From assembly GCF_000768315.1 (NCBI RefSeq), contig NZ_AQQX01000001.1, positions 124,001-188,000 on the forward strand: a DNA stretch of 64,000 nucleotides, in the 5' to 3' direction. The DNA is from Pseudooceanicola atlanticus (GTDB lineage Bacteria > Pseudomonadota > Alphaproteobacteria > Rhodobacterales > Rhodobacteraceae). Positions 50,670-57,242 of the stretch are shown here, one piece after another. The position numbers and the translations under genes are program-made. The first letter of the stretch is position 1. Every line of letters starts with the position of its first letter. The notes under the pieces are model-generated. The model saw only the letters and a list, made by a program, of their open reading frames with translations. It was not told the origin of the DNA and made no database searches.

Positions 50670-51395
50670 ATGGAATGGCGCGATCAGGGTATCCTGCTGT
50701 CGGTGCGGCGGCATGGCGAAAGCGCGGCGATTGCCGAGGTCTTTACCCCCGGCCATGGCCGCCATGCCGGCGTCGTGCGCGGTGGCACCTCGCGCAAGCT
50801 GGCCCCGGTGCTGCAGCCCGGGGCGCAGCTGGACATCACCTGGAAAGCGCGGCTTCAGGAACATATGGGCGGCTTCGCCGTCGAACCGCTGCGATCCCGC
50901 TCGGCCCAGGTGATGGGCGACCGGATGGCGCTGGCGGGGCTGAACACCGTCACCGCGCTTCTGTGCTTTTCCCTGCCGGAGCGGGAACCGCATCCCGCGC
51001 TCTACCAGAGGACCGAGGCGCTTCTGGATCTTCTGGGGCAGTCGGAGATCTGGCCGCTCGCCTACCTGCATTGGGAGGTCGCGCTGCTGGAGGATCTGGG
51101 CTTCGGGCTCGACCTGACCTCCTGCGCGGTGACCGGCGCGACCGAGGGGCTGGCCTATGTCTCTCCGCGCACGGGGCGGGCGGTGACGCGGGCCGGCGCG
51201 GGGGATTACGCGGACCGGCTGCTGCCCCTGCCGCCCTGCCTGCTGCGCCAGGGCGACGCGCCGGATGCCGAGATCGCGCAGGGGTTCCGACTGACGGGCT
51301 ACTTCCTGTCCGAACATCTGGCGCCCGATCTGGGCCGCAAACCGCTGCCCGAGGCGCGGCAGCGCTTTGTTGATCTGTTCGCGCGGCGGCTTTAG
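50670..51395 (+). CDS. recO: DNA repair protein RecO
   Basis: 241 residues. It loads RecA with RecF and RecR. The OB-fold N-terminus [21 protein letters not shown] plus [20 protein letters not shown] is typical, and the helical domain includes [27 protein letters not shown] and [19 protein letters not shown]. It is followed directly by a convergent TetR gene with a 4-base overlap of the stops. Confidence 0.93.
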
Positions 51396-51919
51396 CGCAG
51401 GGCCAGGACCAGGTCGACAAGCGTGGTCAACGCGTCGTCATCCGCCAGGTCGTCCGAGAGCGACCCCATCCCTACCTTCGCGGCATAGAGTGCCTTTGCG
51501 ATCTGCGGGTTGGTCACGCCCAACTGGCGCAACACCTGCTCGAGGTAGGCGATTCGCGCCGCATCGAGCGCCGCGATCGCCTCGGCCACACCGGGATCCG
51601 TGGTGGACCAGCTGCGCATGGCGGCCTCGGTGGCCGGGTCCCCGCCGAACCCGTCGCGCATCATTTCCTGCAATTGCGACACCGCCACGGATTTCTCGTC
51701 CGGGGCATCGGGCATCGCAGAACTCATGTCGCGCCAGAAATCCAGCAGAGCCTGCCGGTAGCGCGGCACATCGTCGAAATGCCAGTAGAAGGACCCCTTG
51801 GTCGTCTCCAGCGCCCGCGCAAGCGGTTCGGCCTTCAGGGCTTCGGGCCCCGAAGCCGCGAGGGCCTGGAGACCGGCATTCAGCCAGTCATCGGCGGTCA
51901 GGCGTTGTTTACGACTCAT
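51392..51919 (-). CDS. TetR/AcrR-family regulator
   Basis: 175 residues. The N-terminal DNA-binding domain reads [18 protein letters not shown] and [27 protein letters not shown], a TetR helix-turn-helix with YWHF. The ligand-binding part has [25 protein letters not shown]. The target is unknown. It lies near the Slam-like locus but no shared operator was found. Confidence 0.85.
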
Positions 51920-52067
51920 GAACCTACGTTAGCGGTTTTGCACGCCTCGCGGGTGCAGAAATTGCCGCTCACCCCCTGTTGAAACGGGGGGCGCCACAAT
52001 TTGCCGCAGTGCAGCGTAGACTGTTGGCAATCTGCCGGGCCGGAATTGCCGGAACAGAGCGATCAAA

Positions 52068-53465
52068 TCAGAACTGCTTGATCAGGCCGACCCGGGCGGA
52101 CAATTCGTCGAAGCTGTAGACGAAGATGTTCGAATTGCGCCGTGTATGGCTGACCTCAAGCTCGGGTGCGAAGCCGGCAAAATTGATCTGCGAATGGCTC
52201 ATCCGCAGGGTGGCCGACAGCTGTTCGTCGCGGCGGGTGGCACCGAAGACGAAACTCGGGCCGTCGAATTGTGCCTCGCGCCAGGTCACGTCCATGCCGA
52301 TGCGCAGCCCGCCGCGGAACAGGTAGGTCGCGCCCAGCCCGGCATCCCAGGCCGAAAAGGCCGCGCTGGCCTGGGCCGCGTCGTTTCGCTCCAGCCGCAA
52401 CAGGCCTCGGACGCTGAATTGCGGCGACAGCGCATGGGCATAGGACAGGACGCCAAGCGCGCGGGTGCCGTCCAGCCCCGGTGCGCTGTCATGGTCCAGC
52501 TGTTCGGCCACAGCGAAGACCTGCAGACGGTCGCGGTTCGTCGGCATGGTGGTCAGCCCGAAGGTCAGGCCCGGGCCCTTGGAATAGGGCTTGTTGTCGA
52601 TCCAGCGCGCGGAATAGGTCACCCCTGCCTCGACCTGGGTTCGCTGGGACAGGTCATGCACCAGCGCGATTTCGGCCCGCATCCGCAGATCGTCGGGCGC
52701 GTTGCCGTCAAACAGCTCGACGGTGGAGGACAGGCCAAAGCGCAGACGGCTGCGCGGCCCGATGCGCGGCGCGTAGCTGACGCCGCCATCCAGCTGCACG
52801 CCCATGGCGCTGCGCTTGCGGGAATTGGGGTTGATCCGGACCAGGCCGAAGGGTCCGCGGAACGTCGTGGCACTGGTCGCCTGCGCCGCATTGGTCGAAG
52901 GCACGAGGGAAAAGCCGAAATAGCCGCTCAGCGGCCGGTCGGTGCCAAGCGCGCTCAGCCCTTCCTCGGCGCGCAGGCGGTCGGCCTCGGACCGGGCACC
53001 GGCCAACCCTTCCGAGAAATGCAGCCGCGCGCGATCCGTCTGACCGGTCTCGGTCAGCACCTCGCCCAGGGCGATGCGGAACCGAGGGACATCCGGGCGG
53101 CTGGCGACCAGCGCCTCGAGCCGGGGCAGGGCGTCGTCGCGGCGGCCCAGCTGGCGCAGCAGCACCGCCTCGCTCCACAATTTGCGTTCAAGATCGGCGG
53201 GGGTGGTCGGCTGCCAGGCAAGCAGGACAGCAAGCGCGTCCTGCATCCGTCCCTGGCTGACAAGGGCGATGGCATGGTCCGCGGGATTCGCTTGGGACGA
53301 AACGGTTTCAGCCATCGCCCGGGGCTGCGGGGGGCGCAGCGCCGTATCGGACCATACGGGTCCGACAGGGGTCATCAGCCCGAACAGGCCGATGAATAGG
53401 AACAGCCAGCGACCCAAGGATCGCTGGCTGCCGCGGCCCGGAAACTTGTCAAAGGTATTGGTCAT
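52068..53465 (-). CDS. Slam-like outer-membrane protein (DUF560, type XI secretion)
   Basis: 465 residues. The N-terminus (RSLGRWLFLFIGLFGLMTPVGP) is a signal peptide. Residues about 60-170 form TPR-like helices (HAIALVSQGRMQDALAVLLAW, DALPRLEALVASRPDVPRFRIALG). From about 180 a strand-rich barrel begins GYFGFSLVPSTNAAQAT, matching the DUF560 entry (PxxN), and ends with RNSNIFVYSFDELSARVGLIKQF with the terminal Phe needed for outer-membrane insertion. Slam proteins carry lipoproteins to the cell surface. The gene follows a TbpB-like lipoprotein, its likely cargo, on the same strand. Confidence 0.78.
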   Translation of the reverse strand: MTNTFDKFPGRGSQRSLGRWLFLFIGLFGLMTPVGPVWSDTALRPPQPRAMAETVSSQANPADHAIALVSQGRMQDALAVLLAWQPTTPADLERKLWSEAVLLRQLGRRDDALPRLEALVASRPDVPRFRIALGEVLTETGQTDRARLHFSEGLAGARSEADRLRAEEGLSALGTDRPLSGYFGFSLVPSTNAAQATSATTFRGPFGLVRINPNSRKRSAMGVQLDGGVSYAPRIGPRSRLRFGLSSTVELFDGNAPDDLRMRAEIALVHDLSQRTQVEAGVTYSARWIDNKPYSKGPGLTFGLTTMPTNRDRLQVFAVAEQLDHDSAPGLDGTRALGVLSYAHALSPQFSVRGLLRLERNDAAQASAAFSAWDAGLGATYLFRGGLRIGMDVTWREAQFDGPSFVFGATRRDEQLSATLRMSHSQINFAGFAPELEVSHTRRNSNIFVYSFDELSARVGLIKQF

Positions 53466-53479
53466 ATAATGGACCGCTG

Positions 53480-53509
53480 GCGCCCCGGACCTCACTCCGC
53501 CCGGGGCGC
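53480..53509 (-). promoter_or_regulatory. Intra-operon hairpin between lipoprotein and Slam-like gene
   Basis: GCGCCCCGG and CCGGGGCGC pair over 9 bp around a 12-base loop with no T-run after it, in the 52-base gap between the two genes. It may reduce read-through so that more lipoprotein than Slam-like protein is made. Confidence 0.5.
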
Positions 53510-53517
53510 TGACCGGA

Positions 53518-54210
53518 TTACTGGCGGTTGGCGTAGAAGTTGGGATCGGCCGATCCGACTTCGGGTGCGCCGGTCAGCACAGGCTGCACGCTTTGCACCG
53601 AGGTGTCGTAAATCTGGCTGGAGCTGGACCCGACGATCGCGGATTCGTCGTCACCGCGGAACGTGCCGGTCAGCATCATGTTCGCGCGGTAGGTCTTGCC
53701 GCCGGACGTCCCGGTGCCGGTCAGCGCGATATTCGCGATGCCGCTGGTCTGGCCGCCCGGGTTGAACTGGCTGGGCGGGACGACGACACGGGTGATGGAG
53801 CTTTGCGCACTGGTGTCCACGTCCATCTCGTCGATCAGGTCGAAGGGCTGGCCGTTCAGCTCCCCGCGCAGGTTGGTGGCCTTGCCGGACCATACGTTGC
53901 CGCTCTGACCGTCGGTCCAGGTGGCGTTCAGCGTCAGGTCTGCCAGAACGTTGCCGACGGCCTGCGCATTGGTGTCGCTCAGAACCTGGAAGGTTTCGCC
54001 CACATAGGTCGCATTCAGCGAGGTCGGCATCGTGGTGGTCGGCAGCTTCGCATTCGCGGCATCCCGAGACGCCTGGAAGGCGGCCGGTGCCGCGCTCGTA
54101 TTGGATGTGCCGCCGCTGGTCGAGGCGGTGCCGCCACCGGTCGTGTTGCAGGCTGCCAGCGCCAGCACGGACAGGCCGGCGGCAAGCTTGGTCGTCAAAG
54201 AAAATTGCAT
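53518..54210 (-). CDS. TbpB-like beta-barrel surface lipoprotein (probable Slam cargo)
   Basis: 230 residues. It has a lipoprotein signal with lipobox LAAC (Cys21), then a flexible Gly/Ser/Thr linker (NTTGGGTASTSGG). The rest is strand-rich, with ATWTDGQSGNVWSGKATNLRG and YRANMMLTGTFRGDDESAIVGS, resembling the transferrin-binding protein B barrel repeats common in Slam substrates. The ligand is unknown. A GGAGA site precedes the ATG. It is the first gene of the pair with the Slam-like protein, and divergent from a histidine kinase gene. Confidence 0.78.
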   Translation of the reverse strand: MQFSLTTKLAAGLSVLALAACNTTGGGTASTSGGTSNTSAAPAAFQASRDAANAKLPTTTMPTSLNATYVGETFQVLSDTNAQAVGNVLADLTLNATWTDGQSGNVWSGKATNLRGELNGQPFDLIDEMDVDTSAQSSITRVVVPPSQFNPGGQTSGIANIALTGTGTSGGKTYRANMMLTGTFRGDDESAIVGSSSSQIYDTSVQSVQPVLTGAPEVGSADPNFYANRQ

Positions 54211-54280
54211 ATTCGAAAGTCTCCAATTGCGCATGAAATTGCGCTGTGGCGATATCAATACCGATTGGATCGCAACATTC

Positions 54281-54300
54281 CCCCCCCTGTTCAGGGGGGG
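54281..54300. other. C8/G8-type hairpin between divergent lipoprotein and kinase genes
   Basis: CCCCCCCT and AGGGGGGG (54281-54288 and 54293-54300) pair around GTTC. It lies within the 171-base divergent region 54211-54381. A similar weaker element (CCCCCTGTTGAAACGGGGG) lies near 51972. It could be structural or regulatory. Confidence 0.5.
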
Positions 54301-54381
54301 AACAAGCCCTTGATCACAAGATAGTTTAACTTTGGTGACCGGTTTCCATTCGCCAGCGCATTCATAATTGGACCGACCGAC

Positions 54382-56577
54382 TTGAAACGTTCCCTTGCCT
54401 TGCCCTTCTACGTGCTCAGCGCGCTTGCCGTGCTGTCGACCATACTGGTCCTTTACCTCGACCTGTCGCAGCCCTGGATGGGCCTGCGCCTGGCGCCCGC
54501 AGAGTCGGGGCTGCGGGTCACCGGCGTCGCCGAGACAGGGCCCGGGGCGGCGATCGCCCCCGGCACGATCCTCACCGGGATCAGCACAGGCGAGGCACGG
54601 GTGGCCTTGGACGCCATCGACAAGATGGAAGAACCGGACGGCCTGCCCACCGTCACGCGCCTGTACGAGTTCTTCGCCAAGCAGGGGCAGATGCACGACA
54701 TGCTCCGCTCCGGGCAGGTGTTGCTGACCACGGCAGGGGGCGACAGCATCTCTGTCGCGCCGCGCGACACCCGCCCGGTCGCCGACCTGCCTGTCGTCTT
54801 CTGGGTGCAGCTGTTCGTGGGATTCGCTGCGACCCTCCTGGGCGGTTGGGTCCTGTCGATGCGCAGCCGTGAACCGGCAGCAGGCTACCTGGCCCTGTCT
54901 GGGGTCGGCCTGCTGATCTCGTCCCATGCGGCGGCGTTCTATTCGACCCGCGAACTGGCAGTGGCCGAGCAGGTCTTCGCCTGGGCCTCGTCGATCAACA
55001 GCCTGGGCGCGATCACCTTCGGCATCGGCATGATCAGCCTCTTCCTGGTCTATCCCGCGCGCTACCTGCCGAAATGGGCGCCGGGCCTCGTCGTCGCGGT
55101 CTTCGGCACCTGGGGCCTGCTCGCCTACTTCCGTGTGCCCGAGCCCATGGCGTTCAACATCCACCTGCCCGTCCTGATCGAGATGTCCCTGATCGTCGTT
55201 GCCGCGATCGGTCAGGTCTTCGCCACCCGCGGCAAGCCCAGCGAACGCGCTGCCCTGCGCTGGTTCGGTCTGTCGGTGGTGATCGGCGCGGGCGGTTTCG
55301 TCAGCCTGATCGCGCTGCCCCAGGCGCTTGGCCTGCAACCGCAGATCAGCCAGGGATACGCTTTCGCATTGTTCCTGATCGTCTATGTCGGGCTGGGGCT
55401 GGGCGTCGCCCGCTACCGCCTGTTCGACCTCGAGTTCTGGGCCTTCCGGGCGCTCTTCTATGCCGGCGGCGTGGCGCTGTTGCTGCTGCTGGACGCGCTC
55501 CTGATCTTCGCGGTGACGATGGACCGGATCCCGGCCTTCTCCTTCTCGCTGCTTTTCGTGGCTTTGGTCTACCTGCCGGCACGTGACACGATGGCCCGCT
55601 GGCTGAACGGGCGGCAGGTCCTGTCGACGGCCGACTTGTTCGACCTCGTGTCGGGCGTGGCGCTGGCGCCCACGGGACCCGAGCAGCGGCAGAAGATGAT
55701 CGACCTGCTGGCCGAACTGTTCCAGCCCATCCGCATCGAACCGGCCCCCGCGCCCGTCGTCCAGCCCGCCCTGCGGCAGGAGGGCGAGGCGATGGACGTA
55801 CCCGGTATCGACGGGGTCGAGGACCTGCGTATGCACTGGCCGCATCGCGGGCGGCGCCTGTTTTCGGCGCAGGATGCCGCGCGGGTGTCCAACGTGCTGC
55901 AGATGGCGTCGCAATTCGTCGAACGCCGCCGCGCCTACGAGGCTGGGGCCGAACAGGAACGCCAGCGGATCAATCGCGACATGCATGACAATATCGGGGT
56001 GCAATTGCTGGGCGCGCTGCATTCCTCGGATGCCGGGCGCAAGAACGACCTGATCCGCCAGACCCTGACCGACCTGCGCGAAACCGTGTCGAACCCCAGC
56101 GGTGAGCCGACCGAACTGACGGTGCTGCTGGCCGACATGCGGGCCGAGATCGGTGAACACCTGGCCTCGGGCGGGGTGGCGCTGGACTGGCAGGTCGATG
56201 TGCCCGACATCCGCGTCTCGCCCATGGCGGTCAATTCGATCCGGGCGATCCTGCGCGAAGGCGCCAGCAACATCCTGCACCACGCAGCCTGCGACCGGGC
56301 CGAGATCCGGGTCAGCCAGGGCGAGGGGCGCGAGGCCGATCACCTGGTGCTGACGATCTCGGACAATGGCGGCGGGTTCGATCCTGACCGGCTGATGCAG
56401 AAACCCGTGGGCGGACGTGGCAACGGGCTGCGCAACCTGCGCTCGCGGACTGAGGCGCGGGGCGGCAGCTTTGCCATCCGTACGGCGCCGAACGGCACCG
56501 GTACGACCCTGCGGGCGGCGCTGCCGCTGGGCGCGGACCCGGTGCCACTGGTCTACCTGAGGGATGCGGGAGAGTGA
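54382..56577 (+). CDS. Membrane sensor histidine kinase (HisKA_3 type) with PDZ-like domain
   Basis: 731 residues, likely TTG start at 54382. A first membrane helix is followed by a periplasmic PDZ-like segment (GLRVTGVAETGPGAAIAPGTILTGI). Seven more transmembrane helices follow (FWVQLFVGFAATLLGGWVL onward). The dimerization box ERQRINRDMHDNIGVQLLG carries His535, and HATPase motifs are EGASNILHHA (N box), ISDNGGGFD and GRGNGLRNLR. It is followed by a LuxR-type regulator with a 2-base gap (TGA 56575-56577, ATG 56580). Confidence 0.85.
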   Translation: MKRSLALPFYVLSALAVLSTILVLYLDLSQPWMGLRLAPAESGLRVTGVAETGPGAAIAPGTILTGISTGEARVALDAIDKMEEPDGLPTVTRLYEFFAKQGQMHDMLRSGQVLLTTAGGDSISVAPRDTRPVADLPVVFWVQLFVGFAATLLGGWVLSMRSREPAAGYLALSGVGLLISSHAAAFYSTRELAVAEQVFAWASSINSLGAITFGIGMISLFLVYPARYLPKWAPGLVVAVFGTWGLLAYFRVPEPMAFNIHLPVLIEMSLIVVAAIGQVFATRGKPSERAALRWFGLSVVIGAGGFVSLIALPQALGLQPQISQGYAFALFLIVYVGLGLGVARYRLFDLEFWAFRALFYAGGVALLLLLDALLIFAVTMDRIPAFSFSLLFVALVYLPARDTMARWLNGRQVLSTADLFDLVSGVALAPTGPEQRQKMIDLLAELFQPIRIEPAPAPVVQPALRQEGEAMDVPGIDGVEDLRMHWPHRGRRLFSAQDAARVSNVLQMASQFVERRRAYEAGAEQERQRINRDMHDNIGVQLLGALHSSDAGRKNDLIRQTLTDLRETVSNPSGEPTELTVLLADMRAEIGEHLASGGVALDWQVDVPDIRVSPMAVNSIRAILREGASNILHHAACDRAEIRVSQGEGREADHLVLTISDNGGGFDPDRLMQKPVGGRGNGLRNLRSRTEARGGSFAIRTAPNGTGTTLRAALPLGADPVPLVYLRDAGE

Positions 56578-56579
56578 GC

Positions 56580-57242
56580 ATGGGCGACGGCCAGCCGGGC
56601 ACACGGCCCTACCGGGTCCTGATCCTCGAGGATATCGCGGAAACCCGCGACTGGTTGCGCGCCATCCTTCAGGAGGCTTACGGCGAGGTCGATGTCGAAA
56701 CCGCCGCCATGCTGCGCGAGGCGCGAGCGATGGTGGATGACGGCTACGATCTGGCGCTCTTGGACCTCGGCCTGCCGGACGGGTCGGGGCTCGACCTGCT
56801 GCGGATCATGAAAGCACGCCATCCCGGCACGCTCTGCGTCGTGACGACGGTGATGGGCGATGACGCCACGGTGGTGGCGGCCCTGTCGGCCGGGGCGGAT
56901 GGCTACCTGCTCAAGGAAAACCCGGCCAGCGTGCTGATCCGGCAATTGCAGCAGATCCTGGATGGCGTGCCCGCCCTGTCGCCGTCCATCGCGCGCCGCA
57001 TCATGGACCATTTCCGCCTGACCGGCCCCGCCTCCGACGAGGACGTCCGGTTGACGGATCGCGAAACCGAGGTGCTGGGCCTGATCGGGCGCGGGCTGCG
57101 CAATGCCGAGGTCGCGCGGGAGCTTGGCATCGCCGAAAGCACCGTCGCCAGCTATATCAAGGACGTCTACCGCAAGCTCGGCATCTCGTCCCGGGCCGAG
57201 GCCGCGTGGCATGCCAGCCGCCTCGGGCTGGCCCGCCGTTGA
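56580..57242 (+). CDS. LuxR/NarL-family response regulator
   Basis: 220 residues from ATG 56580; GGGAG lies 7 bases before it, and a GTG at 56574 is too close to that site. The receiver has phospho-acceptor Asp62 (LALLDLGLPDGSG) and Lys112 (YLLKENPA). The C-terminal helix-turn-helix is LTDRETEVLGLIGRGLRNAEVARELGIAESTVASYIKDVYRKLG. It pairs with the upstream kinase and probably controls nearby genes, including the divergent lipoprotein/Slam pair. Confidence 0.9.
   Translation: MGDGQPGTRPYRVLILEDIAETRDWLRAILQEAYGEVDVETAAMLREARAMVDDGYDLALLDLGLPDGSGLDLLRIMKARHPGTLCVVTTVMGDDATVVAALSAGADGYLLKENPASVLIRQLQQILDGVPALSPSIARRIMDHFRLTGPASDEDVRLTDRETEVLGLIGRGLRNAEVARELGIAESTVASYIKDVYRKLGISSRAEAAWHASRLGLARR

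Follow-up and report, generated by a model that had tools for sequence, protein, structure and literature searches.

A pair of type XI secretion (T11SS) genes in Pseudooceanicola atlanticus lies divergently beside the genes for a sensor histidine kinase and a response regulator. Does this two-component system control the secretion genes, or are the two pairs only neighbors? The question was addressed in a window of 64,000 nucleotides, the whole stretch of DNA that was analysed, and in related loci of other genomes. All four open reading frames are present where a preliminary description had placed them (Table 1). That description read the locus as a Slam-type outer-membrane protein (OMP) with its lipoprotein, possibly controlled by the divergent kinase and regulator.

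Table 1. Features of the locus, with positions counted from the first nucleotide of the window
Feature	Position	Strand	Basis
TetR_N gene	51392-51919	-	Pfam
T11SS OMP (SlipAM/DUF560, Slam-like; TPR + barrel)	52068-53465	-	PF04575 full profile; whole-genome search
Inverted repeat with 9-nt arms in the lipoprotein-OMP spacer	53480-53509	.	sequence
Candidate small surface lipoprotein (lipobox, flexible linker, barrel-only cargo)	53518-54210	-	sequence; AlphaFold2 model; hhalign
Proposed core promoter of lipoprotein and OMP genes: -35-like position abutting the palindrome, weak -10-like TATTGAT (inferred)	54254-54282	-	30-locus alignment
Perfect palindrome CCCCCCCTG-TT-CAGGGGGGG around predicted 7-2-7 operator core (54283-54298)	54281-54300	.	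repeat and pattern scans
Sensor histidine kinase resembling ComP: TM1, PDZ-like unit, then nine helices, HisKA_3-like region, HATPase_c	54382-56577	+	Pfam; model
Putative kinase PDZ domain, residues 35-125, inferred periplasmic	54484-54756	+	model secondary structure; Pfam PDZ in some relatives
NarL/LuxR-type response regulator	56574-57242	+	PF00072 and PF00196 over cut-off
Regulator recognition-helix residues Ser193-Tyr194, covarying with operator outer bases	57150-57155	+	alignment

The secretion gene pair

The OMP belongs to the Slam/T11SS family PF04575. Its 465 residues match the whole SlipAM profile (positions 4-288 of 288) with E 3.1e-21 and 76.6 bits, against a cut-off of 22, and the proposed Slam/DUF560 identity is thereby confirmed. 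For the TPR repeats that had been claimed the evidence is mixed: the general model TPR_16 scores over its cut-off (34.8 bits, cut-off 32.7) and TPR_Slam below it (22.5 bits, cut-off 35.2). The barrel entry motif is found as VPSTN, and the protein ends in -IKQF, with the terminal phenylalanine that had been noted. The hairpin seen between the two genes is also present, with perfect arms at 53480-53488 and 53501-53509.

The partner gene encodes a lipobox protein with a small predicted barrel, as judged from its sequence and an AlphaFold2 model. The protein has 230 residues and carries the lipobox LAAC with Cys21 and the Gly/Ser/Thr linker described before. The model (mean pLDDT 88.5, alignment of 29 sequences) has a short helix followed by strands over mature residues 44-209 and reads as a small barrel, in agreement with the strand-rich protein that had been expected. 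Relatives in which a lipobox was found have mature lengths of 192-232 residues.

The further claim that this lipoprotein is TbpB-like survives in a weaker form. Searches of the window protein against Pfam, NCBIfam and PDB sequences gave no convincing match, and neither TbpB_B_D (PF01298, 26 bits) nor slam_lipo (NF041636, 80 bits) was matched. Curated membership in either family is ruled out by these cut-offs. Among its relatives, the best scores seen were 21.4 bits for TbpB_B_D and 27.4 bits for slam_lipo. Slam_lipo was matched at E <=0.05 by 11 of the 29 family members, the window's own member not being one of them. When a profile of 29 relatives was compared by hhalign with 18 TbpB_B_D-type proteins of the same family, the result was 97.2% with E 3.5e-11 over 141 columns, versus 0.1% for an OMP profile used as control. 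A Foldseek search with the model gave generic matches (best E 0.043), with no TbpB or fHbp among the 50 of 435 matches listed. Because of the profile-profile match and the sub-threshold relatives, the analysis supports reading the lipoprotein as a distant, barrel-only relative of TbpB_B_D cargo that falls below every curated cut-off tested.

The pair thus resembles type XI secretion with TbpBBD cargo, in which a PF04575 OMP stands beside a lipobox small-barrel protein. It differs in that the cargo is barrel-only (mature form 210 residues) and in that a two-component system and a putative operator are attached. Cargo proteins of syntenic marine loci have 282-375 residues and further domains, according to the main text of PMC12282271. 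The likely role of the cassette is to display this small barrel at the cell surface.

The two-component system and its linkage

The regulator contains Response_reg (PF00072, 64.7 bits) and GerE (PF00196, 59.5 bits), both over cut-off, as expected of the LuxR regulator that had been named. The kinase matches HATPase_c at 43.9 bits (cut-off 26.4), and HisKA_3 scores 21.0, below its cut-off of 24. Its PDZ domain had also been claimed, and here the evidence is mixed. Pfam PDZ has no match in the window kinase itself, and with single models at E 0.01 at most 5 of 62 family members matched. The structural model nevertheless has PDZ-like strands and a helix at residues 35-125, between TM1 and nine more helices. 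It is confident to about residue 340, and its last helices have pLDDT of about 60-75. The matches listed by Foldseek for this model are nonspecific, nearly all being 7TM receptors, and PDZ is not listed. The model resembles that of Bacillus ComP in PMC9620489. The system as a whole is like ComP-ComA in combining a kinase of apparent TM1-PDZ-multi-TM HisKA_3 layout with a LuxR-type regulator. It is unlike ComP-ComA in that the host is Gram-negative, the PDZ domain would face the periplasm, and the genes are linked to export genes.

A search for related loci with the single OMP as query gave no confirmed locus. Six loci were obtained with a lipoprotein query and eight with an OMP query from the same genus (together L024-L037). 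Kinase and regulator homologues adjoin in all 14, and the OMP is intact in 13. In the fourteenth, L029, the OMP is reduced to a weak fragment and the kinase has an in-frame stop, while the lipoprotein and the palindrome discussed below are kept. This locus and L063, where the kinase is broken, appear as decaying modules. The kinase is absent from five more distant OMP loci, L038-L042. Of 248 genomes of the family, the window's own included, 7 have the lipoprotein, 12 the kinase (E 1e-40) and 86 a PF04575 match; weaker PF04575 matches were left out of the locus comparison.

When 72 OMPs were placed on a tree, the kinase-linked proteins fell together in a single clade (32 of 34 rows, support 100/99), separate from the one containing the DUF1194-linked loci. 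The lone kinase-linked OMP elsewhere, that of L144, sits on a long branch; its TbpB_B_D lipoprotein scored 27.1 bits, over cut-off, in one scan and gave nothing in a direct scan of the frame, so its assignment is unsure. Many kinase-linked rows come from a kinase-led search, and clade members found through OMP searches were therefore counted separately: the kinase is present in 15 of these 17 and missing from L150 and L159.

Flanking genes are less constant. Up to four genes per side outside the module were compared in 26 loci, some of which end early. At OMP identity <45%, 11 of 286 pairs of loci have any flanking homologue in common; among more similar pairs, 6 of 39 do. The comparison of gene neighborhoods across Rhodobacterales, which had been suggested as a check, therefore shows that kinase and regulator stay with the pair while the flanking genes change.

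The locus is of the same family and bacterial group as the marine cluster 3 T11SS loci of Grossman 2025, which have DUF1194, lactoylglutathione lyase and thymidylate synthase neighbors. It differs in its separate OMP clade, and DUF1194 and glyoxalase homologues are absent from the 14 loci L024-L037. Cluster 3 T11SS proteins seldom adjoin recognisable cargo, according to the main text of PMC12282271. The window's own genome has a second T11SS OMP (G000:C12:309567; L002, L042), with a partial PF04575 match of 27.4 bits. It adjoins Pfam-confirmed glyoxalase and DUF1194 genes, which is the known cluster 3 locus type.

The kinase family is wider than its T11SS branch. Its sample consisted of the best 80 of 334 relatives from a kinase-profile scan. 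By the profiles built here, OMP and lipoprotein occur together in 27 of these loci, L063 being counted with an OMP remnant only. Since the other 53 lack the pair, the family is not specific to T11SS, and an exclusive partnership of kinase and T11SS is ruled out. An autotransporter lies within 15 of the 80 loci by the same kind of profile; Pfam PF03797 was found in 4 of 10 kinase neighbors scanned, and two more are similar to those by profile. No autotransporter or T11SS-type partner was recognised in the remaining loci of this sample. Kinase relatives from Aliidiomarina and Verrucomicrobia (L086, L115, L122) lie beside long DUF5122 or Ig-domain proteins.

In a quick kinase tree of 73 rows, T11SS-linked kinases form a main clade, and the Roseinatronobacter group, L052 and L095 lie among kinases that have different partners. 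On this tree 8 changes of the T11SS label are needed, which suggests that the pairing arose repeatedly, or that it is old and has been lost at times.

A palindrome between the divergent genes

The intergenic region of the divergent genes contains a perfect palindrome with arms at 54281-54289 and 54292-54300. Its core has the 7-2-7 form CCCCCTG-TT-CAGGGGG, and this sequence (CCCCCYRWWYRGGGGG) occurs exactly once in the 4.94-Mb genome. At up to 3 mismatches the window has 10 matches where 18 are expected, which leaves the exact site as the only one to stand out. The genome has three sites with 1 mismatch, as many as for a reversed control pattern, and no convincing target was found among the ORFs around them.

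Across related loci, 27 of 31 have the palindrome, with up to 1 mismatch, no more than 380 nt ahead of the lipoprotein start; in 23 it is exact. The best site lies 61-84 nt before the lipoprotein start in 23 of the 31 and 98-101 nt before it in 5 more. Its distance to the called kinase start varies more, from -42 to 194 nt (the broken kinase of L063 and L095 set aside). In a second set of T11SS loci, again allowing 1 mismatch, 14 of the 19 that carry the kinase have it, against 0 of the 40 that do not (Fisher 9e-10); the two sets share some genomes, so their counts are not independent. Twelve of these 14 sites are upstream of the lipoprotein, and those of L144 and L173 are elsewhere in the locus. 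The kinase-free L159 has a look-alike with 2 mismatches, and L035 has all four genes and no palindrome under 3 mismatches. In each of two Maritimibacter loci (L082, L098) the kinase pair is accompanied by two lipoprotein relatives in tandem, with no T11SS OMP found in the locus; the sites of these loci, CCCCCAGAACCGGGGG and CCCCCGGAACCGGGGG, have 2 mismatches.

Among the 248 family genomes, the exact palindrome occurs anywhere in 10 of 12 kinase-bearing and 14 of 236 other genomes (Fisher 6e-10), versus no link to kinase genomes for the reversed control (3 of 12, p 0.42). It is not commoner than that control overall (24 versus 40 genomes), so the signal is where the palindrome lies. In the 80 kinase loci, the exact palindrome is near the kinase start in 20 of 27 with T11SS, 0 of 15 with autotransporters and 10 of the 38 remaining loci. 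As a control, a stretch of 4 kb lying further upstream was scanned, and 1 of 61 loci had a near match there. In Novosphingobium and its relatives the palindrome is found before the autotransporter gene and not before the kinase, ending 83 nt upstream in Novosphingobium.

The bases after the palindrome on the lipoprotein strand are conserved in part. G is found at +3 in 29 of 30 loci and C at +5 in 27 of 30, with an AT-rich stretch of looser conservation around +24 to +30. The window is without the GAC that most relatives have there, and a scan for the sigma-70 consensus gave no promoter at the palindrome or the proposed core promoter. This pattern fits a predicted activator site abutting the -35 region, as in the NarL 7-2-7 layout. 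In E. coli, the NarL 7-2-7 site abuts the -35 at yeaR and ogt (PMC7419079). The predicted site of the window, accompanied by a regulator with Response_reg and GerE, shares the two 7-base arms, the 2-bp spacer and the proposed position abutting the -35; it differs in its C/G-rich arms (CCCCCTG/CAGGGGG).

The regulator and the site also appear to vary together. Regulator residues 193-194 are mostly Gly/Ser-Tyr or Ser/Thr-His across the family, and the palindrome accompanies 45 of 51 Tyr-type regulators but 4 of 25 others (Fisher 8e-10). Variant sites were sought as symmetric 7-2-7 sequences of any kind that keep this core. Their outer bases are CCC in 40 of 43 sites with GY, SY or GH, TCC in 7 of 8 with SH and TCA in 3 of 4 with TH, in a search that left 21 of 76 regulators without a site, included a few sites at odd distances and counted near-copies. 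The three TCA sites of TH regulators face autotransporters. In 352 kb of sequence near kinases there are 56 sites of this kind, versus 24 in the other 1,099 kb of these loci. A tree-corrected test of regulator and site had 7 independent pairs, of which about 4 agree, 0.2 oppose and 2.8 show no difference; the median p is 0.125, with too few pairs for significance. The outer operator bases thus appear to covary with two recognition-helix residues, an association that is not significant after tree correction.

A model for control and its alternatives

Taken with the conserved linkage, the predicted operator and the regulator-operator covariation make it likely that the two-component system is dedicated to this small T11SS and activates it through the palindrome. 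The control that had been raised as a possibility is thereby supported. In this model, the regulator would bind the putative operator next to the -35 region and from there activate the operon of lipoprotein and OMP. The lipoprotein would be lipidated and moved to the cell surface by the OMP, where the barrel itself may be the functional part. The ComP-like kinase would set the phosphorylation of the regulator through its predicted periplasmic PDZ domain. This domain may read a peptide or a free C-terminus, perhaps one related to the state of export; the -IKQF end of the OMP is a guess. The C-terminus of the lipoprotein was set aside as a ligand because its endings are polar, for example -NRQ or -ATQ.

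The gene pairs could instead be neighbors by inheritance or co-transfer, with the regulator controlling its own kinase gene only. Kinase relatives without T11SS do exist, and a palindrome between divergent genes could serve the kinase. This is improbable, however, as the site keeps a tight distance to the lipoprotein and a loose one to the kinase, precedes the autotransporter gene in Novosphingobium, and belongs to a cassette that persists while its flanks shuffle. It is more improbable still that the palindrome acts as an RNA hairpin or terminator. It would form a strong, perfect stem, but the arm sequence itself is conserved around a center of AA, TT or AT, the outer bases follow the recognition helix, and a terminator scan lists none at this position. 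A periplasmic lipoprotein unrelated to T11SS cargo also has only a small chance of being the right reading. The missing database matches, the generic Foldseek result and the Maritimibacter lipoproteins with no OMP nearby would agree with it; the hhalign result and the frequent pairing with the OMP argue against it.

Two other readings concern the signal. The kinase may be a peptide quorum sensor like Bacillus ComP, with the surface lipoprotein as a density-controlled output. Its apparent layout, with TM1, PDZ, multi-TM, HisKA_3 and HATPase, about 10 TM helices and a LuxR-type regulator, is that of ComP (PMC9620489), and this reading has a modest probability. Against it, the partners are often outer-membrane or exported proteins, and this hints at an envelope signal. 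The kinase family might serve a general surveillance of proteins crossing or entering the outer membrane, its PDZ domain reading barrel C-termini or stalled cargo. The partner slot would be swapped among T11SS, autotransporters and other surface proteins, and the regulator would adjust expression of just this export gene by way of a 7-2-7 operator matched to it. Such a system would amount to DegS-like logic built into a two-component system, and we consider it rather unlikely.

If dedicated control is correct, one marine T11SS clade gains a cargo family along with its own regulator and DNA switch, and the inducing signal can therefore be searched for with a reporter. Control of the cassette by its own sensor-regulator pair becomes a testable proposition instead of a guess, and a kinase family with a predicted PDZ sensor is tied to surface-protein export in many loci. 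A literature search, with most subscription papers outside its scope, found no paper on T11SS with a two-component system or histidine kinase, and none on the palindrome sequence. Titles and abstract openings found for DUF560/Slam with response regulators, or for PDZ, autotransporter or LuxR kinases, describe no such cassette. The words kinase, PDZ, LuxR and regulator do not occur in the main texts of PMC12282271 and PMC8406197.

Some further sites were seen. An imperfect C-rich palindrome, CCCCCTGTTGAAACGGGGGG, lies at 51972-51991, between the end of the OMP gene and the TetR_N gene. Pseudooceanicola pacificus (L045) has the kinase and the palindrome with no T11SS pair within 10 kb upstream. 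Several palindrome copies are found near the kinase in L068 (658, 6809, 8803, 9849) and L078 (2207, 4639); some precede small exported-looking proteins, and larger regulons are possible there.
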